From the IMG/VR virus record IMGVR_UViG_3300038428_000564, positions 1 to 38,680 of that record: a DNA stretch of 38,680 bases. The stretch is one strand, 5' to 3'. This document shows positions 6,003-34,735 of this stretch, piece by piece. The notes beneath the pieces were generated by a model. The model did no database searches and was not told the DNA's origin. It saw only the letters and a program-made list of their open reading frames with translations. This DNA is from a virus. Positions within the stretch are counted from its first letter, which is position 1. Each line of letters starts with the position of its first letter. A program made the position numbers and the translations under genes.

Positions 6003-6575
6003 ATGAACCCTGATACCAATTTGCCCCACTCGACACCACCAAAAAGGGGCGGTGTGAGATTAAACGTTAGAGGGGCGGGAGCATTAATTTTAGCCAAGGA
6101 CACAGGTAGATTGCTATTTGCTTTTCGTATTGCTGACCGCCATACACGACCACATCTTGTATGGAATTTGTGGGGTGGACCAGTAGAATCGAATGAAAAT
6201 CCCGAAACGAGTGTAGTGCGATGGTCAAAAATTCAAACAGGTTATAAAGGGCAATTTGCTGATGTAATACCATTATACACATTTTTCAATAACCAAACAA
6301 ATTTTAGATACCATAATTATTTGTTAATTGTAGAAAATGAATTTTGGCCAAGTTTAGACAGAAAGTTAACGGAAGACTATAAATGGGTCGAATATGGAAA
6401 GTGGCCGGACCCCCTTTATCCAACAGTCAGTGCCTTACTTCGTGAAAAAGGGCCTGAAATTATAAAAATAATTGAAAAGAATGCCATCAGGGAAAGTCTC
6501 TTATTAAAGGGTAACATAATTAAACTAAAAGATATTATAAAAAATATGATTTTGAGTGAGAAAGTGATTTATTAA
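6003..6575 (+). CDS. NUDIX-fold protein with degenerate catalytic box
   Basis: This 190-residue protein carries a NUDIX-like fold at about residues 22-150: GAGALILAKDTGRLL, then LWGGPVE, then an eroded box ending in QTGYKG. Aligned on the TG of the NUDIX box, Arg73 is kept. The three metal-binding Glu positions of MutT (E53, E56, E57) are Trp74, Ile77 and Gln78, so hydrolase activity is unlikely. Binding without catalysis is possible. The C-terminus carries an IKLKDIIKNMILSE peptide, a helix shared with neighbouring proteins and containing an (I/L)xE site. It is a paralogue of the next gene and of the middle domain at 7494. The start is the ATG next to the TATTTAT box; no Shine-Dalgarno site is visible. 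Confidence 0.7.
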   Translation: MNPDTNLPHSTPPKRGGVRLNVRGAGALILAKDTGRLLFAFRIADRHTRPHLVWNLWGGPVESNENPETSVVRWSKIQTGYKGQFADVIPLYTFFNNQTNFRYHNYLLIVENEFWPSLDRKLTEDYKWVEYGKWPDPLYPTVSALLREKGPEIIKIIEKNAIRESLLLKGNIIKLKDIIKNMILSEKVIY

Positions 6576-6576
6576 T

Positions 6577-7149
6577 ATGGATTTTCTTGATACCAAACCG
6601 CGTTCAAATTTGCCAAGTTCTAGTCCGCCAAGACGACTAAATGTGAGAAGGAACATCAGAGGGTCAGGCGCTTTAATATTGGCAAAAGACACAGGCCAAT
6701 TATTATTTGCTCTTCGGGCTAGCCGATACGTTGGTCCTGAAAGACCGCGTGAATGGAATTTATGGGGTGGAAGATTGTATCTTCATGAAAGCCCTGAAAT
6801 GGGTGTAATTAGAAATGCAAAAGAACAAACAGGTTATAAAGGAAATTTTGAAGACGTAACACAACTGTATTCATTTATAAGCCTTTATACAAATTTTAGA
6901 TATTATACTTATTTGTTGACGGTGGAAAATGAATTTACACCAACCATAGATAGAAAATTGATAGACCATTATCAGTGGGTGGAATATGGAGATTTTCCAT
7001 CGCCCCTTCATCCCGCCGTTAAAACGTTACTTGACAGAGCAGGTCACAAAATAAAAAATATAATCGATAAAATTTTTCTTAAAGAAAGTCTTGCAGACGG
7101 CACCCCTCATTCAATTAAATTAAAAAACCTAATAAAAGACTTGTGGTAA
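6577..7149 (+). CDS. NUDIX-fold protein, second paralogue, degenerate box
   Basis: This 190-residue protein is clearly related to the preceding gene: GSGALILAKDTGQLL, LWGGR, EQTGYKG, TNFRYYTYLLTVENEF and YQWVEYG all match in order. In the NUDIX box Arg79 is kept; the positions of MutT E53, E56 and E57 are Asn80, Glu83 and Gln84, so one of three metal ligands remains. It ends in SIKLKNLIKDLW, the same Lys/Leu helix that begins the next two genes. Its ATG lies one base after the previous stop, and the leader ATTTATTAATATG resembles that of the first copy, as expected for a tandem duplication. The substrate is unknown; loss of catalysis is inferred. Confidence 0.7.
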   Translation: MDFLDTKPRSNLPSSSPPRRLNVRRNIRGSGALILAKDTGQLLFALRASRYVGPERPREWNLWGGRLYLHESPEMGVIRNAKEQTGYKGNFEDVTQLYSFISLYTNFRYYTYLLTVENEFTPTIDRKLIDHYQWVEYGDFPSPLHPAVKTLLDRAGHKIKNIIDKIFLKESLADGTPHSIKLKNLIKDLW

Positions 7150-7164
7150 TAAGAACCGTAGGAT

Positions 7165-7497
7165 ATGATTAAATTAAAAGACATGATACCCAAGAAGTAT
7201 TTTTATCATATTACTCCAAAGAAAAATATTCCGAGTATGAAGATACATGGTATAGTTCCCAAACCCGACAAACCTGCTCCGTTTTGCAGTAAAGAAATTT
7301 GTCTGTTTGACAATAAAACCACGATGGAAGATGCTTTGATGAATTGGTTGGGTGATAAATTTGATGAAACCGAACCCTTGGTTTGCCTTACCATAAATGC
7401 TGCAGGACTAAAAATATATCCATCTGATGTGGGTTACGAATTTAGAACATTGGAACCCATACCGTGGAAAAACGTCGTAAAGATTGAGGATATATGA
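7165..7497 (+). CDS. Possible KptA/ADP-ribosyltransferase-fold protein
   Basis: This 110-residue protein begins MIKLKDMIPKK, the Lys/Leu peptide also found in the next gene. The body has FYHITPKKN-IPSMKIHGIVP near residues 13-31 and an ICLFD segment followed by TEPLVCLTINAAGL. This matches the pattern of small ADP-ribosyltransferase-superfamily proteins related to the RNA 2'-phosphotransferase KptA ('yHiT...l..Il..Gl.P'). His15 and Thr17 would be the NAD-contacting H-x-T. The ATG has a weak GTAGGAT upstream, and its TGA overlaps the next ATG as ATGA. The fold call is from pattern memory and needs a profile search. Confidence 0.5.
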   Translation: MIKLKDMIPKKYFYHITPKKNIPSMKIHGIVPKPDKPAPFCSKEICLFDNKTTMEDALMNWLGDKFDETEPLVCLTINAAGLKIYPSDVGYEFRTLEPIPWKNVVKIEDI

Positions 7498-9170
7498 TTA
7501 AACTGAAAAATCTTATAGGAGAATCCAAACCAAAAAACCCAAGAGTTGGTAAATGTTATGAACTTTCAGGCAGATATGTTTTGGAGCACCCCAAAGCCAT
7601 TCTTGTTCATGGCAGATTAATCAATCCTTTTAAACGGGGACTTACAGAACTCGACCATGCATGGGTTGAAGTGGGCGATGAAATTTTTGACCCCGTAATG
7701 GATATAATTTGGCCAAAAAATGTCTATGAAGATTTTTTTCATGCTAAACCAAACAAAAAATATTCTTTTATAGAGGTTGTAAAAATAGTGGATAGGGCGG
7801 AAAATTGGGGGCCTTGGGAAAACATAAATTTGACAGAAAATGAATCAGACGAAGAACATGCGGATGCATTGAGAAAAACGGGATTTTGGGGAAAAGCAGG
7901 AGCTGGGGCGTTAATCATGGCAAGAACCACGGGCAGGCTTCTGCTTCAATTAAGGGGCGACTACGTTGAACAACCCAATACATGGGGAGGTTGGGGCGGT
8001 GCAATTGATGCCGGTCTTTCACCTGAGTCGGCAATGCAAAAGGAAATTGAACAGGAAACAGGATTGAAAAGCAGTCAGATAAGGGAAATCATACCGCTTT
8101 ATATTTTCAGGCACCCAAGCGGATTTAGATATTATAATTTTTTGGTGACGGTTGATGATGAATTCATACCACGACCAAGCCCAACCAACGAATGGGAAAT
8201 CAGCGGTTTTCGCTGGGTGAAATATGGCCAATGGCCTTCCCCATTACATTTTGGTTTACAGATTTTACTTCAACGTTCAGGCAAAAAAATAAGAAAGATT
8301 ATTGATAAAAATTCCGAGGGCGGAAGGTTGGTCGAGGCAATTGACAAAGCTCACGAAAAGGCTGCGTTGGCCGCCATCCGATATGTGTGGCGTTTAATGC
8401 CTAGAGCGGAAAGATTTTACGAATATGATTTTTCCCTGTGGATGAGTAACGACGAACCCACACAAAAATTTGTATTAAGACTTGCTCAAATTCTTTATCC
8501 CAACGACCCCGATGCGTTTTACACCTTTTTTAACAAAGACATCATTCCCACATTGGAAAAATTGGAAGCGGTCAGGACTAAAAGGATTGGTAAAAAAATA
8601 GGCGATGACCCATTATTTTTGTTAAAATTAGCTGTTAAAAACAAAACTTGGGAAGGGGCAAAACAATCATTGATGAGCATATCGCCGGCTGCAACGTGGG
8701 CATACAAAGGTGGCAGAATCACCAATGAAGAGGCTGAAAACATGTTTGACCGGCTTTACAAAATCGCATTGGGCCAAACCATGTATGATGAAAGATATTT
8801 AAAATATTCGCCTCAATTGTCAACTTTGTCCGTGGACCACAACAACCCAACTGAAACCGTGTTTATTCAACATCTTGCAGGTCATTCTGCACAAAAATTC
8901 CCTGATAAAGTTAAAGTACATCGTGGTACAAATTCTCCCTTGGCCAAAATACGACCGGGCGATTTTGTTTCCTTTGACAAGGATTATGCAAGAACCTACA
9001 CCAAAAGTAGATACGGTACGGTTCATCAGGAAGTTTTACCATCAAAAGATTTAAGAGTTTACAAAATGGAACCGGAAAGGGATGAATTGATTTATTGGCC
9101 TGAAGGGCATCAAATCAAGCAGGTTACAAACGTTCCCACCTTCAGGGACTTTTGGGGCAAATGGCGATAA
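7494..9170 (+). CDS. Three-domain protein: Cys-His-Asp domain, NUDIX domain, ART-like C-terminus
   Basis: This is a 558-residue multidomain protein. Residues 1-11 are the MIKLKNLIGES peptide, with an LIGE site. Residues about 18-100 resemble a papain/transglutaminase-like fold with Cys21, His55 (DHAWVEVGD) and Asp66 (IFDPV). Residues about 133-270 are a NUDIX domain paralogous to the two upstream genes but less eroded: WGGAIDAG then KEIEQETGL, keeping Glu184 and Glu188 while Q187 replaces the middle Glu. Residues about 285-450 are helical. Residues about 470-540 look like an ADP-ribosyltransferase: KVHRGTN (Arg477), GDFVSFDKDYARTY, and ELIYWPEG (Glu531), in R...VS...E order. The start overlaps the previous stop and has GAGG 4 bases before it. 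Roles as host-modifying cargo are inferred. Confidence 0.6.
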   Translation: MIKLKNLIGESKPKNPRVGKCYELSGRYVLEHPKAILVHGRLINPFKRGLTELDHAWVEVGDEIFDPVMDIIWPKNVYEDFFHAKPNKKYSFIEVVKIVDRAENWGPWENINLTENESDEEHADALRKTGFWGKAGAGALIMARTTGRLLLQLRGDYVEQPNTWGGWGGAIDAGLSPESAMQKEIEQETGLKSSQIREIIPLYIFRHPSGFRYYNFLVTVDDEFIPRPSPTNEWEISGFRWVKYGQWPSPLHFGLQILLQRSGKKIRKIIDKNSEGGRLVEAIDKAHEKAALAAIRYVWRLMPRAERFYEYDFSLWMSNDEPTQKFVLRLAQILYPNDPDAFYTFFNKDIIPTLEKLEAVRTKRIGKKIGDDPLFLLKLAVKNKTWEGAKQSLMSISPAATWAYKGGRITNEEAENMFDRLYKIALGQTMYDERYLKYSPQLSTLSVDHNNPTETVFIQHLAGHSAQKFPDKVKVHRGTNSPLAKIRPGDFVSFDKDYARTYTKSRYGTVHQEVLPSKDLRVYKMEPERDELIYWPEGHQIKQVTNVPTFRDFWGKWR

Positions 9171-9835: not shown

Positions 9836-10279
9836 ATGGAAAAGAATAGATTAATAGAACAAGAGAAATTAAAAGACCTTGTTAAAAAAGTGTGGCAAAA
9901 AGTAAAGAAGGGGAAAGAGGGTGAGATTGAAGATCCAAACCAACTAAAATTGGATTTGCCCTCGGATGTTAGTCAGAAAAAAATACAACCGATGATACCG
10001 GGGTTAACATTTAAAGAAAAACGGAAAAAATACCTTTCTGATTTTTCAAAACCGCCGTTCTTCACCAATACAAGAAAGTGGCTGGATGCTAATTTTGAGG
10101 GGAACATTTATGTTGGTCCCGATTTAACCAAGTATGGATTTATGTTAAGTGGCTATCAAAAAATAAAGCCTTGGGAAAAGGTTAAATATCCATATTTGTT
10201 TGTGACGGAATTGGAAGATCAAATGCGAAGTTGGAATTTTGCCATGGCAAAAAAACTCGGCCTGACCGGTGAGGATTAA
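9836..10279 (+). CDS. Uncharacterised protein with Lys-rich N-terminal helix
   Basis: This protein has 147 residues from the ATG at 9836; a TTG three codons upstream (9827) is an alternative start. The N-terminus is a very basic helix (EKLKDLVKKVWQKVKKGKEG) like the tag helices of neighbouring proteins. The rest has a PMIPGLTFKEKRKKYLSDF segment and an aromatic-rich C-terminal half. No enzyme motif is visible and I recognise no family. It is followed by a GAGG-led gene 1 base after its stop. Confidence 0.55.
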   Translation: MEKNRLIEQEKLKDLVKKVWQKVKKGKEGEIEDPNQLKLDLPSDVSQKKIQPMIPGLTFKEKRKKYLSDFSKPPFFTNTRKWLDANFEGNIYVGPDLTKYGFMLSGYQKIKPWEKVKYPYLFVTELEDQMRSWNFAMAKKLGLTGED

Positions 10280-10280
10280 G

Positions 10281-11540
10281 ATGAATGTTGCCCTACTCCA
10301 ACAAATAGTGGATGAAGTCGTCAAGGAAGAAATGTTTAAAACATCTGAGTTGCAGGGACCATATACTGTTCATGTCAAGAAAGGCAGGTTAGCCGGTCAA
10401 ACTGTAATGGCTAATAAACATAAAGTCACAGGTGTCTATTATTATCTTAATCCGGACACAGGTACCGACGAACCGATTGGAACTGAAAACGATTTGAATG
10501 TTCAAAAGCAACAGGATGAAGGCGTGGGTTATGTTTACGCAAAAGACAGAGAAAAAGACCCCAAATCCATCCCCGGCGAACATTGGCGCATTAAATTTCA
10601 AAGCTCTAGTGACTTAAAAAAGCACGGTCATACGGAAAAATCAAAAGTGGATGAAGCCTCGGTTTCCAAAAAAGATATAAAAGGTGTTATAAAAGAACTT
10701 GTTGATGAAATGTGGGCCGACATAGGAACTGTTGTATCGGGTGGTGATGAAACTTTGCCGGATGATGAAAAAACATTGAAACCCACGGGTAGAGTGACAG
10801 AGCCGGGTGCAGATGAAAATTTGGTAAATTTGTATAGAAATGGCGGAGGCAAGACATCCATAGAGGCTCTTCCATCGGTTGGTGGGGCCATGTCTGAAAG
10901 ACGGAATGAAGGAAAAACTATGAAGAAAGAAACATTGATAAACCTTATTCATGAAGTAATTCAAGAAGTAAGATACGAAGATCCAGCATATAGAGAACAA
11001 CAAGAATTATTGGCCATGAGGAGAATACAATCATATGCTCATTGGGGAAAGATCCATGCATTAAAGCATCCCAACGAAGTTGTGGGTTTATTTGAAAAAA
11101 TTGCACAGGAAGTAGATGGATTGGTACAAGCCCATGAGAAGGGAAAAGAAGTTTCTCCATCAAATGTTCATGAAAGGGTTGTGAATGATGTCGCTGGATA
11201 TCAAAACCCAAAAATAATAAACCTAATGAAGAAAATTCAGTCTTATGCTCAGTGGGGAGTAACTAATGCTCGTGATAACAAGCCAAAAAGCAAGGCTAAA
11301 ATTGACTCGGCCTTCAAAGGTCTTATTTTGGATATAAATAATTTGATGCAAGCACACGCAAGGGGAATGTTTTCATTGGACAAAAATGGATTGAGGTCAT
11401 TAAAAGTGATGGAAGCATATGCTCATTGGGGAAATAATAATCCTCAAAAGCAGCCAAATGAAATTGTTGCAATATTTCAAAGAATTTTCAAAGAAATTAA
11501 TAAATTGATTCAGGCATACAAACCATCAGTTAGCCTATAA
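10281..11540 (+). CDS. Tagged repeat protein, three C-terminal repeats
   Basis: This protein has 419 residues. GAGG lies 6 bases before the ATG at 10281; an in-frame GTG at 10269 is an alternative. The N-terminal half starts MNVALLQQIVDEVVKEE and contains a second helix of the same kind, KKDIKGVIKELVDEM, near residue 133. A third, MKKETLINLIHEVIQEV, starts at residue 214, where ATG 10920 has AAGGA upstream and could be an internal start for a 206-residue protein. The C-terminal part holds three repeats built on (I/M)xxYA(H/Q)WG followed by a helix ending (L)(V/M/I)QA(H/Y). It could be two genes fused, or one gene with an internal start. Function unknown; the tags suggest packaging in the head. 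Confidence 0.6.
   Translation: MNVALLQQIVDEVVKEEMFKTSELQGPYTVHVKKGRLAGQTVMANKHKVTGVYYYLNPDTGTDEPIGTENDLNVQKQQDEGVGYVYAKDREKDPKSIPGEHWRIKFQSSSDLKKHGHTEKSKVDEASVSKKDIKGVIKELVDEMWADIGTVVSGGDETLPDDEKTLKPTGRVTEPGADENLVNLYRNGGGKTSIEALPSVGGAMSERRNEGKTMKKETLINLIHEVIQEVRYEDPAYREQQELLAMRRIQSYAHWGKIHALKHPNEVVGLFEKIAQEVDGLVQAHEKGKEVSPSNVHERVVNDVAGYQNPKIINLMKKIQSYAQWGVTNARDNKPKSKAKIDSAFKGLILDINNLMQAHARGMFSLDKNGLRSLKVMEAYAHWGNNNPQKQPNEIVAIFQRIFKEINKLIQAYKPSVSL
11019..11529 (+). repeat. Three diverged ~45-residue repeats inside the tagged repeat gene
   Basis: Units begin near 11019, 11226 and 11401. Each has a YAHWG/YAQWG core followed by a helix with LFEKIAQEVDGLVQAH, LILDINNLMQAH or IFQRIFKEINKLIQAY. The DNA of the cores is also similar (TATGCTCATTGGGGA, TATGCTCAGTGGGGA, TATGCTCATTGGGGA), which points to duplication within the gene. 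Confidence 0.8.
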
Positions 11541-13319: not shown

Positions 13320-13326
13320 TATTTAT
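13320..13326 (+). promoter_or_regulatory. TATTTAT box before zinc-ribbon gene
   Basis: TATTTAT runs into an ATG (13325) and ends 4 bases before the preferred ATG at 13331. The same layout (TATTTATG, three bases, ATG) occurs on the minus strand at 34735-34722. Confidence 0.4.
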
Positions 13327-13330
13327 GATT

Positions 13331-14002
13331 ATGAAGAAATCCGACCTGAAACGGTTGATAAAGGAAATTTTGTTGGAAATGGGTGATGAAACCACCGACC
13401 CAAATGTGACCGGTCATTCTGGTTTCAAACCATTGAAAATGGAATACCGACCATATAAATGTTCCGTATGTGGAAATGTACAATCTCTTAACACAACTCA
13501 TTTGGGACCGGTTTTAGCTTATTGTGATAAATGCTCGTGGAAAAGGGATTTTGCAGGAAAGGAACATTCGCATTACATTCCCGCTTTAGGGTCGCACACT
13601 TATAGAATTTTTACATACGCCCCCTCTGTCGATGAAGATTTTACCTTGGGTTACAGCCACGGTATAGTTATTGATGACCCCACATTCTTGACCCGTGACC
13701 CATTAAACGACCCTGAAATGACAGGCAAAATAGATGAAGAAAAATATAGGTTCGATGATTTTCATTGGTTAGCTAACATGGCTGGATTTCACAAACCCAC
13801 CGACGTATATTACGGAACGGTGTTAATTGGAACCATTGAATCAACTCCAAGAGGGGATGGCTATGTAGTTATTTCTGTTCAGGGACCGAAAGGAACTACA
13901 CCCATAAAACCCTCGAAGCAAAATCATTTTAAGACAAAAAACGATGCAGCCAAGGTTTTACATCAAACATGGAAATTATTAAGACATGATGCTCAAGGTT
14001 AA
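13331..14002 (+). CDS. Tagged zinc-ribbon protein
   Basis: This protein has 223 residues from the ATG at 13331, or two more from the ATG at 13325. It opens with KKSDLKRLIKEILLEM, one of the clearest copies of the shared tag, with LIKE and ILLE sites. A four-Cys zinc ribbon follows (CSVCGN ... CDKCSW, residues about 41-62). The rest is a mixed alpha/beta region with HGIVIDDPTF and YGTVLIGTIE and no known catalytic motif. It is the first gene after the tube terminator and has its own TATTTAT box. The function is unknown; head packaging is proposed from the tag. Confidence 0.6.
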   Translation: MKKSDLKRLIKEILLEMGDETTDPNVTGHSGFKPLKMEYRPYKCSVCGNVQSLNTTHLGPVLAYCDKCSWKRDFAGKEHSHYIPALGSHTYRIFTYAPSVDEDFTLGYSHGIVIDDPTFLTRDPLNDPEMTGKIDEEKYRFDDFHWLANMAGFHKPTDVYYGTVLIGTIESTPRGDGYVVISVQGPKGTTPIKPSKQNHFKTKNDAAKVLHQTWKLLRHDAQG

Positions 14003-16778: not shown

Positions 16779-19259
16779 ATGCCTGAACCAAGAAAATCAA
16801 AACAAGAATTAAAAGAGGAAGCACAATTTCTTGAAAGTCTTGATAGTCGATACAGGGAAATGCTTAAACTTCAAGGTAAGGAGTTACAAGCGGAAAAAAG
16901 CCTTTTAGCTATGCAGAAGGCCCGATTGGAGGCAAAAAAGGAGGGGATGGATGCCAAAGAATATGAGATTAAATTGAATATTCTTAATACCGAAGAGAAA
17001 ATTTTAGGCCGAGGCAAAGCAAAAAGGGAAAATGTGGTTAAATTGCTTCAAGAACATGAAAGTCTTAGCAAGAGTCAGGATAAATTTTTAAAATCTCAGA
17101 AAAAATCTATAGAATTGGAAGAAATATTGGACACGTTGGGTCTTGGTAGATTGAACAGATTTGTTGGGTTATTAAAAGGAATGGGTACAGCTGAAGCGTT
17201 GGCTAAAGTAGCCTTCATCGGAACGCTTATTTACATTGCTAGGTTGGCTTATAATTTTCAACAAATAGATAAAGCGGCTGGAGGATTCAGAAAAACGATG
17301 GGTATAATAAGGGCTGATTCCGGAAGATTGGAAAAAATAGTCAGAGATGTTAATTACAATTTTGCTCACATCGGGGCCACCGCAGAAGATGTTTATAAGT
17401 CGGTTTTGGCTGTGACGGCGACATTAGGAAGTTCCAATGCAGTCACAACTAAGATGTTGGAAACAATGACGTTGTTATCGGCTCAGCTTGGAGTAGCTGA
17501 ATCCACGTCCGCTGAATTTTTAAGAGTTATGGGCCAAGTATCAAGGAATACGATGGATTCCCAAACCAACATGGCTTTATTTACTGCTAAATTGTCGGCA
17601 GCAGCAGGAACAAATTTGAATGAAGTCATGGGAGATATTGCTTCTGCATCTAAAACTGGATATCAATTTTTGAGTAGGGACCCACTGGCTCTTGCCAAGG
17701 CTGCAGTCGAGGCGAAAAAAATGGGCACGAATTTGGAATCGGCCACCCACACTGCATCTTCTTTGTTAAACTTTACCGAAAGTGTAAAGAATGAAATGGA
17801 GGCCAGCGTTCTTGTTGGAAAATCCATAAATCTTCAAAAGGCTCGTGAATTAGCTTATCACCGAGACATAAGAGGGTTGAATGCTGAAATTTTGAATGTA
17901 ATGAAGCAGACAAATTTTGAAAATCTCGACCCGTTCCAGCAAGACGCAGTAGCAAGGGCGTTGGGAAAATCGGCAGATGAATTGGCAAAAATGGCTCAAG
18001 CAGATAGGGAAATGAATGCCATGCGAAACAGTAAGGACAAATCAATAAAAGCTGAAGTTGCCGCCTACGATAAATTGGTCAATTCCAACAGGTCTATGGC
18101 TGATGCCACTGCAAAGGACTACAAAGCAAAATTAATGGCTTTGTCCAACGCGGAATCATTAAAAACCATTACTCTTGCTATTCATGCTATTGTTCAAAAA
18201 GGATTGTATCCTCTTTTACCGGTTATTGCTGGAATTTTAAAGGGCATAGGATGGACATTAGATTTTATAAATAATGGAATGGGAATGTGGGCAGGTTGGT
18301 TGGGACCAATCATAGACATCTTGGATGATATCGCCATATGGTTCTTTACCATAAAGAAACCACAACTTTTAATAGGACTTGGAAACTTGATGCAGAACGT
18401 ATTTGGGGTACCTTTAAAGCTAATTGAAGAAACCGTGCCCAAGGCTAGAGAATTTCTTCAATTGTTTGAGGGTCTTGGCAAAGGCGGGGGAATGTTTGCA
18501 AAATTATTTGGAGGATTAACTAAAATACCAGCCTTATTTAAAACAGTAAGTTCATCGTTTTCCATATTTGGTAAGGTTTTCGGATTTTTAAAACCGTTTT
18601 TGGGTTTTGGTGCAGCTTTGGGAAAATGGATAACTCCCATTGGTTGGATTATAACTGCGGTTATGTTTCTTGTAAATTTATTCAAACGCTTGTCGGGCAT
18701 AGGAGCGGCCTTTCATAAAGGTATTTTACAGGGAATATGGTTTGGGATAAAAGCCATTGGTCTTGCCCTTTATGACACACTCATTTCTCCGTTTGTCGAA
18801 GTATGGAAATGGTTGAAGAAAACGTTTTTTGGCAGTTCTCCATCCCAATTGGGATTGTTGATTGTTAAAGGAATACAAGCTGTCGGGTCAATGTTAATCC
18901 ATATGTTGCTGGCTCCATACATATCCGCATGGAAGTTGATTAAAAAGATTCCTTTCATATCACATTTGTTTGGGGGTAAAAATATAGCTGGAGCGATTAC
19001 TCCGGAGGCCAAGGCTACCATGAATGTGACAAAGAATAAGCCGGAAGTAGATGTCAAAAAATCATCTGACGCACTATCCAACACAGTCGATAACATGCAT
19101 GATGAACTTGCAAAGAGAATTTCAGCCATTGTTGATGCAATCAATGGTTTGAGAGATGATATGAAAAATGGGAAATTAACAGCAAATGTTTACATCGATT
19201 CACAAAAGTTGGATGCATTGATGGGCAGAAGATTAGCCTATACAGGTCAACTAACATAA
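16779..19259 (+). CDS. Tail tape measure protein
   Basis: This 826-residue protein sets tail length and is housed inside the tube. Residues 1-115 are a highly charged coiled coil. Residues about 135-440 are Ala-rich helices with tape-measure-like segments (ATAEDVYKSVLAVTATLGSS, LGVAESTSAEFLRVMGQVSR). Residues about 470-740 contain several long hydrophobic stretches (for example PLLPVIAGILKGIGW and WITPIGWIITAVMFLV) that may enter the host membrane during DNA passage. SSPSQLGLLIVKGI and the C-terminal GKLTANVYIDSQKLD are typical tape-measure elements. It has its own candidate promoter and is followed by baseplate genes. Confidence 0.85.
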   Translation: MPEPRKSKQELKEEAQFLESLDSRYREMLKLQGKELQAEKSLLAMQKARLEAKKEGMDAKEYEIKLNILNTEEKILGRGKAKRENVVKLLQEHESLSKSQDKFLKSQKKSIELEEILDTLGLGRLNRFVGLLKGMGTAEALAKVAFIGTLIYIARLAYNFQQIDKAAGGFRKTMGIIRADSGRLEKIVRDVNYNFAHIGATAEDVYKSVLAVTATLGSSNAVTTKMLETMTLLSAQLGVAESTSAEFLRVMGQVSRNTMDSQTNMALFTAKLSAAAGTNLNEVMGDIASASKTGYQFLSRDPLALAKAAVEAKKMGTNLESATHTASSLLNFTESVKNEMEASVLVGKSINLQKARELAYHRDIRGLNAEILNVMKQTNFENLDPFQQDAVARALGKSADELAKMAQADREMNAMRNSKDKSIKAEVAAYDKLVNSNRSMADATAKDYKAKLMALSNAESLKTITLAIHAIVQKGLYPLLPVIAGILKGIGWTLDFINNGMGMWAGWLGPIIDILDDIAIWFFTIKKPQLLIGLGNLMQNVFGVPLKLIEETVPKAREFLQLFEGLGKGGGMFAKLFGGLTKIPALFKTVSSSFSIFGKVFGFLKPFLGFGAALGKWITPIGWIITAVMFLVNLFKRLSGIGAAFHKGILQGIWFGIKAIGLALYDTLISPFVEVWKWLKKTFFGSSPSQLGLLIVKGIQAVGSMLIHMLLAPYISAWKLIKKIPFISHLFGGKNIAGAITPEAKATMNVTKNKPEVDVKKSSDALSNTVDNMHDELAKRISAIVDAINGLRDDMKNGKLTANVYIDSQKLDALMGRRLAYTGQLT

Positions 19260-19274
19260 CATACTTATTAACAT

Positions 19275-21668
19275 ATGCCAATTGCAACAACATCAGTGAT
19301 TAAACTTTCAAATTTTCCGCCAACGCTTCCGCACATACCGTTGAATTATCCTTCCGGCCCGGCTCCCGGAAAATTGGAATTGATTTTAAATGCGAACAGC
19401 ACCTATTTGTATCATGAGTTTAGTCCATACACCAATTACAAGGATAGTGTTTTGGCGAGCGTGCTTTCCGATAGACAACCATTTTTATACACTTACATCG
19501 ACCAATATCAAAACGGTTTATTTAATAAATTACCTCAATCTGTTCAATCGTTGGGTTCAATTGTAGGAATAACTCCCGACACAGTAAATGATGTTGTTAG
19601 AGTTTCCAATTTTATCATATCAACGTGGGGCGTTCAATTTTTAGTAACTCAAGCGGCTATTCAACGGTTGGCTCCATTTGATGAAACAAGGATTTACAAT
19701 CCACTGTCGCCTGTTCTTGCCACGGTTTATCCGTTGACTTTGGGGTTGGGAGACATGCCGATTAGACATATTGAAGGCGGTCTTTTGGGTCTTGCGAATT
19801 CAGTAACTTCAATTGTTGGTATTAATTTGGAAAGTGGATTTCAAACACCTGCCAGTACTGTCGGCAGTGCAGCGTTGCCGACAATTAATACAGGTCAAGG
19901 TAAAGGGTTGATTCGTGGCTCTGATGCCGCTAAGGGTGCGGCATCATTCCAATCAAAATGGCAACCGGCAAAGTCAACAAACGGGTCGATATTAAGTTCA
20001 GCATTGAATAATTTTGCAAGTTCCGTTCAAAGTTCATTTAAGGCATTTTTTGGAAGTGCCCCAAAAGCAAAAGGTATTTTCAGGTCGGATGAAGAAGGCT
20101 ATAAAATCATGTCGTTGGGTTTTGCAAATCTGTATCAACCTTGGTTTGCATCCGCCACCGACCAAGTGGATAAAATAAATACTTATGGTATGCCACCCAC
20201 CCCAAACAAAACCACGTTTGGAATCGTTGGTTCCCCACTCGGCACGGGCAATGCACAGACCGTATTTATAAAACAAAAACTTATATCGCTTCCTGATAGA
20301 TTTGTATATGTTCCGACTACGGATGGAATCGCTGGCTATGTTATTGGTACTAAAACAACAGGCTATGGTGCTGGTGATAAATATACGGATGTTATAGGCA
20401 GACAACCTCAAAGTAATGTGGATGGGTTGACTAATTCTGACGTAACATTACAGTATAGTTATTACATACAAGAATCTAATAATTACCCCACTAAACTTTC
20501 AGACCCGCAATCGTCCGGTGTGGCAGAAATTGAAAAACAACTACAGAGTGTTATTAATGATATAAATGCGGCACCCACATATAAAGTGTTTACAAACAAT
20601 TGGTCTTATCTGTTGCCCTATGGAAGTGATGCTAGATATGTTGGGTATGATAATTGGACAAGTAGAAAAGCAGCCGCAGATTTTGGAAAAGCGATAATTG
20701 GAAAAATAGGTACTGGAGAAGAGTACAATGCTGCTGCATCTGGCCCCACAAACAATGATACCACTATACCAAAAACAATTGATGTATATGGTTCAAAGAC
20801 AAACAATTTAAGAATGGCTACAACATTTATGTCTGACGGTATTAATATGTTGACGGTATTGGATTCGTCTCGGAATACGCCTGACAATGATTTGTTCAAT
20901 GCTGTTTATCCTAATTGGGTTGAATGGAAGCCATACAATGATGATTTGATCGCGTTCTTTTTTTATGATGTGGTAAATGACAAGTATATTCCATTTCGTG
21001 CCACCGTAAAAGGTATCTCGGAAGGTAACACTGCGTTTTGGGATGAGCTTCGTTTCATAGGAAGAGCAGACCAATTATATTCATATAATGGATTTAGTAG
21101 AACACTTTCTTTTACTTTTAATGTTGTAATTAATAGTGTTAGTGAATTGTTACCATCGTGGGAGAAAATCAATTATATTGCAAGTGCGGTCAAACCATCG
21201 AACTATACATCAGGTCAGGTTATAAATCAAGCTTTCAATAGATTTATTGTTCCGCCTATGTTTATGATAACCATAGGCGATTTGTATAAATTTCAGCCGA
21301 TGGTCATTACATCAATAAATGTTAATATTCCTGATGATGCTTCGTGGGAAACATTGAATGAAAATAATTCAATATTAGGTTGGAGTTATTTGAATGGCTT
21401 GGTTACTTCTCCAAATTTGGGCAAAAATTATGGTCAACTTCCGAGGGAAGTTGAAGTTGCTGTCACTTGCAACTTACTTGAAAAGGAACGTGCGATTGTT
21501 GGCGGTTCTCATTTTGGTCATGGACCAAGAGTTGATAATTGGGAAAATTTGAATGTTGATAGTCGATTCTCGACCGGCAGTGCAAATATTCCATATTTGC
21601 CTGTTCCAACAACATTGCATAAGAATTTCGTGGTATGGAATAATCCCGGAAGTTCTTTAAAGGCTTAA
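19275..21668 (+). CDS. Baseplate/tube-cap structural protein, gp48/gp54-like candidate
   Basis: This is a 797-residue protein. The N-terminal 250 residues are Pro/Ser/Asn-rich with helical stretches (TPDTVNDVVRVSNFIISTWG). The C-terminal part from about residue 590 has RTLSFTFNVVINS-SELLPSWEKINYIASAVKPSNY, then VPPMFMITIGDLYKFQPMVI and IPDDASWETLN. This arrangement resembles tail-tube-fold baseplate proteins that start tube growth, such as T4 gp48/gp54. The protein is about twice the size of those, with added central and N-terminal material. It lies between tape measure and gp53-like genes, as expected for a hub/wedge component. The exact orthology is uncertain. Confidence 0.65.
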   Translation: MPIATTSVIKLSNFPPTLPHIPLNYPSGPAPGKLELILNANSTYLYHEFSPYTNYKDSVLASVLSDRQPFLYTYIDQYQNGLFNKLPQSVQSLGSIVGITPDTVNDVVRVSNFIISTWGVQFLVTQAAIQRLAPFDETRIYNPLSPVLATVYPLTLGLGDMPIRHIEGGLLGLANSVTSIVGINLESGFQTPASTVGSAALPTINTGQGKGLIRGSDAAKGAASFQSKWQPAKSTNGSILSSALNNFASSVQSSFKAFFGSAPKAKGIFRSDEEGYKIMSLGFANLYQPWFASATDQVDKINTYGMPPTPNKTTFGIVGSPLGTGNAQTVFIKQKLISLPDRFVYVPTTDGIAGYVIGTKTTGYGAGDKYTDVIGRQPQSNVDGLTNSDVTLQYSYYIQESNNYPTKLSDPQSSGVAEIEKQLQSVINDINAAPTYKVFTNNWSYLLPYGSDARYVGYDNWTSRKAAADFGKAIIGKIGTGEEYNAAASGPTNNDTTIPKTIDVYGSKTNNLRMATTFMSDGINMLTVLDSSRNTPDNDLFNAVYPNWVEWKPYNDDLIAFFFYDVVNDKYIPFRATVKGISEGNTAFWDELRFIGRADQLYSYNGFSRTLSFTFNVVINSVSELLPSWEKINYIASAVKPSNYTSGQVINQAFNRFIVPPMFMITIGDLYKFQPMVITSINVNIPDDASWETLNENNSILGWSYLNGLVTSPNLGKNYGQLPREVEVAVTCNLLEKERAIVGGSHFGHGPRVDNWENLNVDSRFSTGSANIPYLPVPTTLHKNFVVWNNPGSSLKA

Positions 21669-24690: not shown

Positions 24691-26043
24691 ATGTCCAACA
24701 TGGTTAATAATTATAAAGATTTAATAAAAAAACTTCGTCACATTCCAATTGTTTTATGGGCAATTCCTTCCGATGAATTCCTTCATCCATGTGCTACCGA
24801 TGTTTCTGCGGTCTTTATAAAAGAGTTGGTTGATGGTGACACCTATTGTGTATCGTTTAATCATCCTGATTTGCCGCCCATTGTAGATAAAAAAACATTT
24901 ATTAACGATTTGAATGAAGTTCATGATGGTGGAAGAAAATGGGTATTTGATAAAAAATCTTTCATGCAACTTTTGCCGGTTGAAAGACTGTTGGATTTTG
25001 ATTTGTTAATCCATCTTCAAAAGGGACGAATAATAGACAAACAATCCCTTGAAACCCCAGCACATCAGTTTATTTATAGAACTAAACGGGAATGTGGTGA
25101 TTTAAACAAGGTTGTTCCTTTATTGAAACACAAGGAAGTGTTTGAAAAAATGTGTGCCGAAGTCTTTGACGCGGATACAAATATTTTGGAAGAAGGTTAT
25201 GAAAAAGAAAATGAAATCATTATAGAGACCTTGGCAAAGTTGGAGGCAAACGGTATTTATGTCAACGAAAATGATTTTGCAAAGCATTTCAATGCAAAAA
25301 TACAACCCAATGGATTAGTTTACAGTAAATATAATGTTTATACCAGTACAGGCAGGCCAAGTAATCACTTTGATGGTGTAAATTATGCGGCTTTGAATAA
25401 AGAGGATGGTTCGCGGTCGTGTTTTGTTTCTCGTTATGGTGATGACGGTATGATGGTATTGATTGATTATTCGGCTTTTCATCCGAGAATTATTTGCCAC
25501 ATCACGCATTTCCCTATGGATATCAATGAGGATATCTACAAATATTTGGGAGAAATGTATTTTCAGAGAAAGGTTACGGAATATGACATGGCTGAGATCA
25601 AAAGTATAACCATGCGACAATTGTATGGCGGGGTTGAACAAAAGTATGAGACCATCAAGTATTTCAGTAATTTGAAAGAATTTATAAATATTCATTGGGA
25701 AAAGTTCAAAAAGGATGGATTTACATTTACACCATTGTTTAGAAGAATTATCACTGATAAACATTTGAAGGAAGCTAATCCTGCAAAATTATTCAATTAT
25801 CTTCTTCAAGCTACGGAAACTGAAATTGCTTTGTCGGCGGTCAAGGTGGTAAATGAATATCTTGAAACCAAAAAAACAAAAGCAGTATTATACACTTACG
25901 ATTCCTTGTTGTTTGATTTTTATAAAGGTGATGGACAAACCGTTCTAACCGACATCATGGAAATAATGACCATGTGTAAGAGGTTTCCGATTAAAGTGTA
26001 TAAAGGTGAGTCGTATAATTCGATGGTTCAAATCTACCCTTAA
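24691..26043 (+). CDS. Small family A DNA polymerase with altered active site
   Basis: This 450-residue protein has the polymerase core of the Pol I family without a recognisable 5' nuclease and with only a possible remnant 3'-5' exonuclease (residues about 18-165, no DxE seen). YTSTGRPS at 217-224 matches the TSTGR(L/P)S segment. Motif A is IDYSAFHPRI (Asp259); the steric-gate Glu710 of E. coli Pol I is His264. Motif B keeps Lys304 and Tyr312-Gly at exact spacing, but Arg754 is Met300 and Phe762 is Met308. LLQATETEIALSA matches the piQGtAAD helix. Motif C is YTYDSLLF: Asp404 kept, His881 to Tyr, Glu883 to Ser. Both catalytic Asp remain, so it may work, but unusually. TTGACA at 24664 could be part of its promoter. 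Confidence 0.8.
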   Translation: MSNMVNNYKDLIKKLRHIPIVLWAIPSDEFLHPCATDVSAVFIKELVDGDTYCVSFNHPDLPPIVDKKTFINDLNEVHDGGRKWVFDKKSFMQLLPVERLLDFDLLIHLQKGRIIDKQSLETPAHQFIYRTKRECGDLNKVVPLLKHKEVFEKMCAEVFDADTNILEEGYEKENEIIIETLAKLEANGIYVNENDFAKHFNAKIQPNGLVYSKYNVYTSTGRPSNHFDGVNYAALNKEDGSRSCFVSRYGDDGMMVLIDYSAFHPRIICHITHFPMDINEDIYKYLGEMYFQRKVTEYDMAEIKSITMRQLYGGVEQKYETIKYFSNLKEFINIHWEKFKKDGFTFTPLFRRIITDKHLKEANPAKLFNYLLQATETEIALSAVKVVNEYLETKKTKAVLYTYDSLLFDFYKGDGQTVLTDIMEIMTMCKRFPIKVYKGESYNSMVQIYP

Positions 26044-26061: not shown

Positions 26062-26069
26062 TATTTATA
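26062..26069 (+). promoter_or_regulatory. TATTTATA box before tagged GTG-start gene
   Basis: TATTTATA follows the polymerase stop by 18 bases, and its TATTTAT core ends 4 bases before the GTG at 26073. Another TATTTATA occurs inside the next gene near 26218, so the motif alone is not specific. Confidence 0.35.
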
Positions 26070-26072
26070 GTT

Positions 26073-26516
26073 GTGACAAAGAATGATTTACGGCATCTTA
26101 TTAAAGAAGTAATAAATGAAGTCTTGCAAGAAAATATAGACTTACGCAAAAGTTGGGTCGTATTGCATGATATGGGTCATGGATGGTATCCGCAAATGGA
26201 AGGTGCAGGAAAACTTTATTTATATTCGCCTATCTTAAATAAAAGAAGCGTACATTTTTCTATTTTTTTAAAAGGAAAATTTAAATATTTTATTTTTCCT
26301 TCTGAGGATGATGCTATAAGAGCAAAAGACTTATTTAGAAGAATTTTCAACAGTTATGGTGGATCATGGCCAACGGTTCAATGGTCAATAGGACCAGCGT
26401 ATAATTATTTGGGTGGTGCTTATCATAAGGATGATAGACAATATTCTAACATGGATTTTTTATTAGGATATGAAGATGATGATGACGATGATGCAGATAA
26501 ATGGAAAAGAGGATAA
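26073..26516 (+). CDS. Tagged small protein with acidic C-terminus
   Basis: This protein has 147 residues from GTG at 26073; a TTG at 26070 is an alternative. It opens with TKNDLRHLIKEVINEVLQE, a clear shared-tag peptide with LIKE, VINE and VLQE sites. The body has aromatic and Gly-rich segments (VVLHDMGHGWYPQMEG, VHFSIFLKGKFKYFIF, VQWSIGPAYNYLGGAY). The end is a run of Asp (GYEDDDDDDAD). I recognise no family. It sits with another tagged gene between polymerase and gp32-like genes. Confidence 0.55.
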   Translation: MTKNDLRHLIKEVINEVLQENIDLRKSWVVLHDMGHGWYPQMEGAGKLYLYSPILNKRSVHFSIFLKGKFKYFIFPSEDDAIRAKDLFRRIFNSYGGSWPTVQWSIGPAYNYLGGAYHKDDRQYSNMDFLLGYEDDDDDDADKWKRG

Positions 26517-32940: not shown

Positions 32941-33912
32941 TTAACCATTCCAATTTTTGGGTGGTTGAGCATATCCGTTTGGAAAACTTTGTGGTAAGTT
33001 AACGGCTAGTTTATTTGTAATAGGAATACCCATGCTGATTAGAGCTTCCCTTGAAGCATAGTAAATGTCAAACGATTGGGCCAAATATCCACGGTCAAAT
33101 GTGACATTGTGAACCTTGCTGTATTCTTTTCTGCCCCACTCTGTACCCATATCAAAGTCTAACTTTGGTTGTTCATATTCTACGTCTCCACAATAATTAT
33201 GAAGGTCATTACTACTGTCAGAACTAATCAAATTTTGTTGGCAACAATCTTTGAATTTTTCATTATCTGAGGTATTGAATGTATTTAACGCAACATCATT
33301 ATTATTGCAACAGGTATAGCTAACGTTGGATGTGTAAGTTGAACTGATATTACCTCCTGCTGACAATCCTGTTCCGCCACAGCCGGTAAGAGTATTATTA
33401 CCGCTGCTTATTCCACTAACTACATTATTGCCGCCCCATGTCCATGTATAATACGGCCAAGATGGCCACGGCTGATAATATGGCACGTAATATGGTACAG
33501 GGTTGTTAATAATTGTTGTGGTTACGATTGGTTCTTTTTCATAGAAAATTCTAAGGCCAATTACACCACAATTCTTTTCAGAACCATCTTCCTTTGATTG
33601 TGCGTAGGTTTTTCCATCGAATTTATAACCAAATTTAAACATGGCCCATTCACTATCTGAAAACCTGAACCCCTTTATTTTTTCAGAAGAATATGCATCA
33701 ATGATGTAACCTGTGTCGGTATCCGATGCTGCCTTGCCTGTAAGCACGTTCAGGCCATCCACTGAACCCACTGCAAGAATTCTCTTGTAATGATTGTTTT
33801 TTATTTCTATAACATATTCAGAGCCGTTTTTGGCTTCAATGTATGTTTTACCTTGGTGATTGTATTGTTTGCAACGATGGCCGTTGACCAATATATTGAG
33901 ATCAAAACTCAT
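32941..33912 (-). CDS. Secreted or virion-like protein with SVDGL domain and Cys-rich middle
   Basis: This 323-residue minus-strand protein has AAGGATAAAT directly before the ATG. Residues 1-130 match a family I know only as uncharacterised in bacteria and phages: ILVNGHRCKQYNHQGKTYIEAKNG, then RILAVGSVDGLNVLTGK, GYIIDAYSSEKIKGFRFSD and CGVIGLRIFYE. A Pro/Tyr/Trp stretch follows, then a Gly/Asn/Ser/Cys region with paired Cys (SYTCCNNND, KDCCQQN). The C-terminal 100 residues form another domain (GYLAQSFDIYYASREALISMG). The paired Cys suggest disulfides or metal binding. With the next gene it forms the only minus-strand block. Confidence 0.6.
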   Translation of the reverse strand: MSFDLNILVNGHRCKQYNHQGKTYIEAKNGSEYVIEIKNNHYKRILAVGSVDGLNVLTGKAASDTDTGYIIDAYSSEKIKGFRFSDSEWAMFKFGYKFDGKTYAQSKEDGSEKNCGVIGLRIFYEKEPIVTTTIINNPVPYYVPYYQPWPSWPYYTWTWGGNNVVSGISSGNNTLTGCGGTGLSAGGNISSTYTSNVSYTCCNNNDVALNTFNTSDNEKFKDCCQQNLISSDSSNDLHNYCGDVEYEQPKLDFDMGTEWGRKEYSKVHNVTFDRGYLAQSFDIYYASREALISMGIPITNKLAVNLPQSFPNGYAQPPKNWNG

Positions 33913-34010
33913 ATTTATCCTTATCTTTTAATTGTTGTAGTTTATTTAAAAGCGCCTCATACAGGCGATTTCATAGATTACATATACGATAAAAAGAAAA
34001 AGTCAATATT

Positions 34011-34724
34011 TTATTTCTGTTTTAATTTTGCTCTCTTTCTATAAATCACATGTTGTTTTTTAACTATATCCGAACATTTTTTACATATGGTTAATTTTTT
34101 CCCCTCCGGAGTTGTATAAAGAGGATTTTTATGACATATGGTGCATATGTTTTTTCTTAGATATTCAAGTCTTCTTAATTTAACTTCTTCGCTTTGTTCC
34201 TTGGCACAAGTAGCACATAATCGTAATCTTTTTCCACTAGCCGTAAGAACCCCCGGTTTTTTCCTGCAACGAAGGCAAATTCCTTTATCTATCAATCCTT
34301 GAACAAGCGCACGTCGTTGTTTGAGATGTTTTGTGCAATATGTTTTTGGTGTGCCATCTTTATTTTTTTCAGCAGGTGCACCACATTCTCCACACAAACC
34401 ATTCGCTATTCTTACCGCTCGGCGTTTTTTTATGTAAAAAACCAATCTTTGCTTCTCCGTCATTTTCTTAAGTGCTTCCATTTCTTTGTCTGTTAAAGTA
34501 TAGCCTTTTGGTATCCAAGGTTTCACCGCTTTTATTTTTGGTTGCACCGCTTTTGAAATAGGTTTTGTTTTTGGTAACAATGGGGTTGTTACTTGTGAAG
34601 GCGGTATTGCGATTTTGTGAGGAAACATCTTTAAGAACCTACGTGTATCATCGCTAAAGTCTTCCGTGTTCATTTCGGTGATTGCTTCTCTGATAAGTTG
34701 TTTTATATCCTCTTTGGTAATCAT
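34011..34724 (-). CDS. Tagged protein with three zinc-knuckle repeats
   Basis: This protein has 237 residues from the ATG at 34724, or two more from the ATG at 34730, which overlaps the TATTTAT box. It opens with ITKEDIKQLIREAITEM, a shared-tag peptide with LIRE. A Pro/Lys-rich linker follows to about residue 75. The C-terminal half has three Cys-pair units of about 40 residues: CGECGAP...C-KH, CLRCRKKPG...CATC and CTICHKNPL...CKKC, each followed by a Lys/Arg-rich helix. It is very basic and probably binds nucleic acid. It resembles DNA-compacting or injected DNA-binding proteins; that role is inferred. Confidence 0.65.
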   Translation of the reverse strand: MITKEDIKQLIREAITEMNTEDFSDDTRRFLKMFPHKIAIPPSQVTTPLLPKTKPISKAVQPKIKAVKPWIPKGYTLTDKEMEALKKMTEKQRLVFYIKKRRAVRIANGLCGECGAPAEKNKDGTPKTYCTKHLKQRRALVQGLIDKGICLRCRKKPGVLTASGKRLRLCATCAKEQSEEVKLRRLEYLRKNICTICHKNPLYTTPEGKKLTICKKCSDIVKKQHVIYRKRAKLKQK

Positions 34725-34728
34725 GGAC

Positions 34729-34735
34729 ATAAATA
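34729..34735 (-). promoter_or_regulatory. TATTTAT box before zinc-knuckle gene (minus strand)
   Basis: Read on the minus strand, TATTTAT runs into ATG (34730-34728) and ends 4 bases before the preferred ATG at 34724-34722. This mirrors the layout at 13320-13333 on the plus strand. Its presence on the opposite strand argues that the box is tied to gene starts, not to one DNA strand. The rest of the divergent gap 34736-34835 shows no clear element. Confidence 0.4.

Follow-up and report, generated by a model that had tools for sequence, protein, structure and literature searches.

A tagged zinc-ribbon array on a phage contig as a candidate internal head protein

A minus-strand gene at 34011-34724 of a 38,680-b viral sequence (the window, i.e. 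the whole stretch of DNA analysed) encodes a protein combining a short N-terminal tag with basic cysteine-pair repeats, which raises the question of whether this protein is packed into the phage head and injected with the DNA. The reading favoured here, at a probability of roughly 0.6, is that of a late internal head protein whose tag resembles a capsid targeting sequence (CTS) and which is trimmed by a protease, ejected with the DNA and able to bind nucleic acid. The best reading of the source is a large phage of the T4 superfamily.

The zinc-array gene and its relatives

The gene is complete (237 codons plus stop), with its ATG at 34724 and its stop at 34011-34013, in agreement with the coordinates given in a preliminary description of this DNA. 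Its start was set at ATG 34724 because it is fixed by a late-promoter-like TATTTAT box (34729-34735, minus strand), which lies 4 nt upstream and overlaps an earlier ATG at 34730. The ORF caller had used an upstream TTG and, consequently, this ORF is absent from the scan for tags at gene starts and from the tally of box spacings but included among the 42 tagged starts discussed below.

The 237-aa product begins with MITKEDIKQLIREAITEMNTEDF. The tag, MITKEDIKQLIREAITE, occupies residues 1-17 (34674-34724, minus strand) and was delimited by its motif and by a helix predicted at residues 4-17; its sequence contains two L/I-x-E motifs, I11-R-E13 and I15-T-E17, after either of which a protease may cut if the rule of T4 gp21 applies. 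It is followed by a linker (residues 18-90, 34455-34673, minus strand), predicted to be disordered at residues 18-74 (pLDDT <50), and by the basic array (residues 91-237, 34014-34454, minus strand), assigned from predicted structure and composition (147 residues, among them 41 K+R, 10 D+E and 11 Cys; pI 10.2). Within the array, the minus strand encodes zinc ribbon 1, C111xxC114-x15-C130xxH133, at 34326-34394, zinc ribbon 2, C150xxC153-x16-C170xxC173, at 34206-34277 and zinc ribbon 3, C194xxC197-x16-C214xxC217, at 34074-34145. In the AlphaFold model, obtained with a three-row alignment (mean pLDDT 68.5), the protein from residue 91 onward is predicted to repeat a unit made of a zinc-ribbon hairpin and a long helix (pLDDT about 74-90), a long basic helix coming after each of the three ribbons Cx2C-x15/16-Cx2[CH].

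The gene was found in three records only, namely the window and two others. The first, G001, is a 90,208-b record obtained by sequence from viral contigs; it holds locus L001, whose zinc gene (L001:7422-8672) encodes 416 aa comprising the tag and two modules of three repeats, of which the window protein retains one. The second, G034, is a 365,299-b jumbo-phage record reached through a sheath search, with a 448-aa relative (49849-51195, minus strand, E 2.8e-46) that has three repeats in its N-terminal part, the internal tag ITKNDFKQLIKEVIDEV at residue 221 (score 24.8) and two further Cys-pair units; its N-terminal tag is divergent and scores 4.1, below the threshold. G034 also encodes a T4-type prohead protease (phrog_207, E 3.1e-54) and a major head protein (phrog_138, E 7.6e-51). 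None of the 18 large or related records searched with query A2 contained a relative of the zinc protein, and two of 11 records picked mostly by sheath relationship (ten new ones and the already known G001) contained one, these being G034 and G001. Phage collections gave only LR745208.1 (E 0.05) and six unconvincing helicase matches, and plasmids none. The window, a 38.7-kb fragment, has no match to the T4 protease; no protease or head protein was found in G035, also a fragment (43 kb), which shares 28,335 b with the window at 99.986% identity, runs 14.6 kb further left and carries five class-B tagged genes in this extra part. The Pfam models PF03420 and PF07068 (T4 protease and gp23) matched in 0/17 relatives each, a search with no positive control and therefore uninformative.

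The preliminary description had called the repeats zinc knuckles. Retroviral-type zinc knuckles (CCHC), CX2CX4HX4C, are likewise small zinc sites of basic proteins, but the spacing here, one Cx2C-x15-Cx2H and two Cx2C-x16-Cx2C, is that of zinc-ribbon-like pairs, and the name was abandoned. The repeats themselves do exist, and a dN/dS of about 0.21 in the codon comparison between the window and G001 indicates that the gene encodes a working protein with purifying selection on the Cys repeats.

Comparison with known families yielded no identity. No Pfam family exceeded its cut-off on the window protein. A RelB-like antitoxin (PF25734) was rejected, with 12.5 bits for the zinc protein and 17.5 bits for the 26046 ORF at a cut-off of 27, the matches covering the tag only; a defence-system protein was rejected since PADLOC returned none, and a known solved fold since no PDB match reached E<=0.001. 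The PDB sequence search likewise gave weak matches only, the best being NMD3 (E 0.067). Foldseek matched part of the model to phage proteins labelled in databases 'NMD3 family' and 'putative ribonucleoprotein' (ctrNG92), at E 1.3e-4 and 2.7e-3; such proteins measure 93-97 aa, and the best viral match was a 97-aa 'NMD3 family' protein. The Cys-pair spacing also resembles that of TIGR04272 (CxxC-x17-CxxC), which the G001 and G034 proteins match weakly (E 0.008, 15.9 bits and E 0.002, 17.8 bits, under the NCBIfam cut-off of 36 bits) and the window protein does not.

The zinc gene adjoins a DnaB-type helicase gene in the window, in G001 and in G034 alike, and each time has the same minus-strand neighbour, which in the window encodes 323 aa with a weak DUF7918 match (32941-33912, same minus-strand insert) and is conserved at L001:8767-9741 and G034:48817-49743. 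No tag was found on this neighbour. Since the exonuclease and helicase genes are directly adjacent elsewhere (1-88 nt apart in L010, L015, L023, L026 and Mel-JY01), the zinc gene and its neighbour form a lineage-specific insert. Between these two minus-strand genes, after the zinc gene, lies a small hairpin, CGCCT-GTATG-AGGCG (33953-33967, minus strand), whose stem is kept in G001 with a compensatory pair change (CGGCT/AGCCG) and whose folding z-score is weak (only -1.5); it is a possible terminator.

An insert present in some lineages only could also be a degenerate mobile gene of the HNH/endonuclease VII kind, reduced to its DNA-binding half after loss of the catalytic domain and joined to a tag by chance fusion, and in LR745208.1 (L003) four similar Cys-pair repeats, with K/R-rich stretches of 17-20 residues between them, precede a C-terminal HNH/endonuclease VII domain, with no tag seen. 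The selection on the gene (dN/dS about 0.21) and the retention of tag and box in two relatives speak against such decay, as does the lack of any HNH family match in the window protein and, by NCBIfam, of any HNH domain in the window, G001 and G034 proteins, which makes this origin very unlikely. The similar array before a nuclease domain in LR745208.1, the closest counterpart of this cargo, supports DNA contact by the zinc array, and together with the basic ribbon/helix repeats and the pI of 10.2 it puts the chances that the protein binds nucleic acid at about even.

A tag family that includes genes beside the prohead protease

Two tag classes were defined, class A as K-x-[DE]-h-x-x-[LI][IV]-x-E-h-h-x-E and class B as MIKLKxLLxE. 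The recurrence of the tag noted in the preliminary description was borne out, the zinc-protein tag resembling those of the plus-strand class-A genes at 13331-14002 (MKKSDLKRLIKEILLEM) and 26073-26516 (VTKNDLRHLIKEVINEV, GTG start). The window has both classes, with class B exemplified by a NUDIX-domain gene at 7494-9170 (plus strand, MIKLKNLIGE), and a tag model without any G034 sequence among its seeds placed a class A or B tag at the start of 24 of the 474 G034 ORFs of at least 70 aa, as compared with 0 in interior controls (interior start-like codons in the same 474 ORFs). A few of these 24 look false (98973, 107765, 108753) and 334736 is the terminase. A looser regex applied to nine records matched 80 of 1057 N-termini, as against 62 of 3109 windows placed in protein interiors (OR 4.0, p 1.8e-15). 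Class-B tags also occur in Microcystis phage Mel-JY01, the closest isolate with a name in this analysis. One PSSM seed set was taken from the window, L001 and L007 and another from the window, L001, L052 and L099, so that tag matches in the seed records are circular in part (L001 belongs to G001 and L052 to G028); no seed came from G034 or G023, though L099 is related to the G023 head cassette. Loci overlap in the work with the first seed set, as do the window and G035 in the scan for tags at gene starts.

Tags occur within the head cassette. In G034 the tag is present on both genes flanking the protease (339607 and 343723), and L052 has six tagged ORFs between portal and major head protein, one of which is orthologous to the protease-adjacent gene. 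Across ortholog families, whose members are not independent events, the regex matched the N-terminus of the gene just after the protease in 21/43, of the gene just before it in 19/35, of the head protein in 19/49 and of the scaffold in 9/36, and the C-terminus of the protease itself in 33/36. The genes before and after the protease are named by position only, PHROGs giving no usable match for the one before. The C-terminal match fits the C-terminal propeptide that, in published passages on SPN3US and T4, is removed from the proteases of these phages. No N-terminal match was obtained for portal (0/26), g376 (0/25), g174 (0/21), S21 (0/22) or g333 (0/16); g276 matched at its C-terminus in 17/28 and PhoH in 2/40 (N-terminus) and 6/40 (C-terminus).

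The large terminase subunit, not known as a head cargo, matched at its N-terminus in 12/22 orthologs, and the motif is thus not exclusive. Together with the many tagged genes located outside the head cassette, this would suit a docking helix for some other partner, such as a chaperone, the RNA polymerase or the replisome, the proximity to head genes then reflecting general late function. We regard this as rather unlikely, given that the portal, neck/tail-position and S21 families are without the tag, that L/I-x-E stands at the tag junction and that the regex recovers experimentally proven T4 CTSs. Concerning the junction, L/I-x-E was found between tag and body in 26 of the 31 anchorable orthologs of the gene before the protease, a family in prohead-core position (35 distinct orthologs, four not anchored), against 509 of 4184 six-residue stretches (12%) in the same proteins; one tagged ortholog beside the protease, L052:3925, is without it.

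T4 served as a control. Its IPII and IPIII were matched by the regex precisely within the CTS established by experiment, and gp24 and gp2 were matched too, with an overall yield of 15/210 N-termini and 10/413 interior windows. An L/I-x-E ending within residue 10 was present in 8 of 10 T4 prohead or internal proteins (not in IPI and gp23) and in 1 of 14 others, the DNA-end protector gp2; the fragment alt.-2, which stems from an alt duplication and is without L/I-x-E, was set aside. According to passages of PMC9026906, gp21 cleaves after L/I-x-E, the CTS consists of residues 1-10 of IPIII, and ejection is described for several T4 internal proteins. As stated in parts of PMC9391042, IPIII is active in the cytoplasm of the host in a form lacking its CTS, and passages of PMC3012670 describe a high diversity of T-even internal proteins behind a conserved CTS.

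The system shares with T4 IPII/IPIII a short N-terminal segment ending in L/I-x-E and diverse cargo behind a conserved tag, but the tag described here extends further, over about 17 aa (K-x-[DE]-hxx-LI-x-E-hhxE), only its hh-x-E core can be aligned, and the cargo is a zinc-ribbon array. T4 Alt, a packaged ADP-ribosyltransferase with a short N-terminal propeptide, is also comparable, the window having a tagged NUDIX-domain gene (7494), although for the zinc protein itself no enzymatic domain was detected. A further comparison is with the ejection proteins of the giant phages SPN3US and phiKZ: published passages report that a T4-like protease trims many head proteins of such phages, and for SPN3US a protease with a C-terminal propeptide, as the C-terminal tag suggests here; the SPN3US propeptides span 20-254 aa, and these passages describe no repeated tag family.

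A tag of this kind could also serve a component of the prohead core or scaffold that docks through it, acts in assembly and is then digested and expelled: tags do occur on scaffold-position and protease-adjacent genes, and T4 core proteins are cut to fragments most of which leave the head, according to passages of PMC9026906. However, the zinc gene belongs to a lineage-specific insert next to the DnaB gene, away from the head cassette, and its restriction to three records is at odds with core parts, which should be universal. T4 core proteins are not known to carry zinc arrays, and a core role is considered unlikely. Targeting of the zinc protein to the head by its tag is, on sequence grounds, probable. 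The earlier proposal that the protein is packed or injected with the DNA is supported by inference, from the tags on prohead-core-position proteins by the protease, the L/I-x-E junctions and the T4 CTS control.

No description of the tag, the box or multi-tag precursors was found in the open-access literature; the tag family, with its N-terminal, C-terminal and internal use and its zinc-array cargo, is a variant not found in print of a mechanism of known kind.

The TATTTAT box

As the preliminary description had it, the box recurs on the other strand, at 34735-34729. Its spacing to the zinc gene is 4 nt in G001, as in the window, and 5 nt in G034, and the two other N-terminally tagged class-A genes of the window have TATTTAT-N4-start, with boxes at 13320-13326 and 26062-26068. 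Counting both strands, the 38,680 b contain 23 copies of TATTTAT, about 3e-4 per position and strand, and three exact-N4 coincidences are therefore very unlikely, even with the post-hoc choice allowed for. In all nine records the spacing to the ATG shows a mild rise only at 4-6 nt, which indicates that exact N4 is a trait of this group and not of all relatives.

Near gene starts, sense exceeded antisense occurrences in the window (8 vs 3), G001 (16 vs 7), G034 (59 vs 34), G018 (26 vs 5) and G020 (27 vs 5), while no sense enrichment was seen in G011 (9 vs 8) and G019 (23 vs 26). The T4 consensus TATAAATA was rejected as the box, the sense-strand motif being TATTTAT (27 sense vs 5 antisense in G020). 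In the window, the box lies 27-46 nt before the sheath, tube and tape-measure genes and 4-7 nt before cargo-like genes, and none was listed at the RecA, exonuclease and helicase starts.

A box at 3-9 nt was found for 10 of 42 tagged starts and 42 of 609 untagged genes in four records (OR 4.2, p 0.0009). When the tagged genes were divided into those starting a unit (28 nt or more to the gene upstream, or no such gene) and those inside operons, the box was present in 10/17 and 0/25 respectively, pointing to a late promoter-like element used by the tagged genes that start a unit. TATTTAT is thus a general late-promoter-like element and not specific to tagged genes. The idea of a common programme for tagged genes holds in so far as the box marks many late unit starts; it does so irrespective of tags, and is lacking where a tagged gene lies within an operon. 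Late expression of the zinc gene would be compatible with a box common to the sheath, tube and tape-measure genes, and, judging from the spacing, its mRNA would probably be leaderless or nearly so.

Proposed route of the zinc protein and further tagged genes

Taken together, these elements suggest the following course. The TATTTAT box 4 nt before the ATG would start the gene's own late, probably leaderless mRNA. The 17-residue N-terminal amphipathic helix would act like the T4 capsid targeting sequence and bind the prohead core, so that, as proposed from the relatives, the protein would be enclosed while the head is built. A T4-type prohead protease would then cut after I-R-E13 or I-T-E17 and remove the tag, and the mature linker with its three zinc ribbons would stay with the packaged DNA and enter the host with it. 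There, in the least certain step, the mature part may bind nucleic acid, perhaps shielding the entering DNA or blocking an early defence, a role modelled on the T4 internal proteins. The shuffling of modules among the relatives resembles the diversity of those proteins and, by this analogy, suggests a part in host-specific conflict.

A wider proposal, which is held only tentatively, is that in jumbo phages of the T4 superfamily two interchangeable helical tags (K-x-[DE]-L-x-x-LI-x-E-h-h-x-E and MIKLKxLLxE) load about 20 proteins per genome, zinc arrays included, and that tags inside ORFs, as at residue 221 of the G034 zinc protein and in the window ORF at 10269, let the protease free several cargo units from one precursor. 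If the reading of the tags is right, they would be a second head-address signal for loading proteins, distinct in sequence from that of T4; they would reveal from sequence which of the many uncharacterised genes in large phages have products that reach the host as infection begins, and what these phages inject would become directly testable.

The ORF at 10269-11540 (plus strand) has three tag-like motifs near residues 7, 134 and 220 (scores 7.2, 9.2 and 26.6) and may be a multi-tag precursor from which several cargo units are cut; an internal tag-like motif is also present in the G001 counterpart of this ORF, L007:351-2207. NUDIX-domain genes stand in a row at 6003-9170 of the window (6003, 6577 and within 7494-9170), with IKLK-type C-terminal tails on 6003 and 6577 and MIKLK N-termini on 7165 and 7494, and their products are candidates for packaged nucleotide/NAD enzymes. 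Fusions of the tag to a cytidylyltransferase-like or 5'-nucleotidase-like enzyme were observed at G018 163485-165017 and G023 19047-19637 (loci L133 and L134); the window counterparts, 14016 and 9323, are without an N-terminal tag, and the 14016 protein carries a tag-like motif some 115 residues before its C-terminus instead.

A short family-A DNA polymerase gene (24691-26043, 450 aa, Pfam DNA_pol_A E 1e-9) lies between the tail and recombination genes of the window. A gene resembling that of ribosomal protein S21 (rpsU) stands between the protease and head protein genes in L031 (22183-22410) and relatives, and 27 ORFs in head-cassette loci match it by blast. The major head protein of Mel-JY01 (L031-L034) has at least 600 matching stretches and represents a very widespread head lineage.
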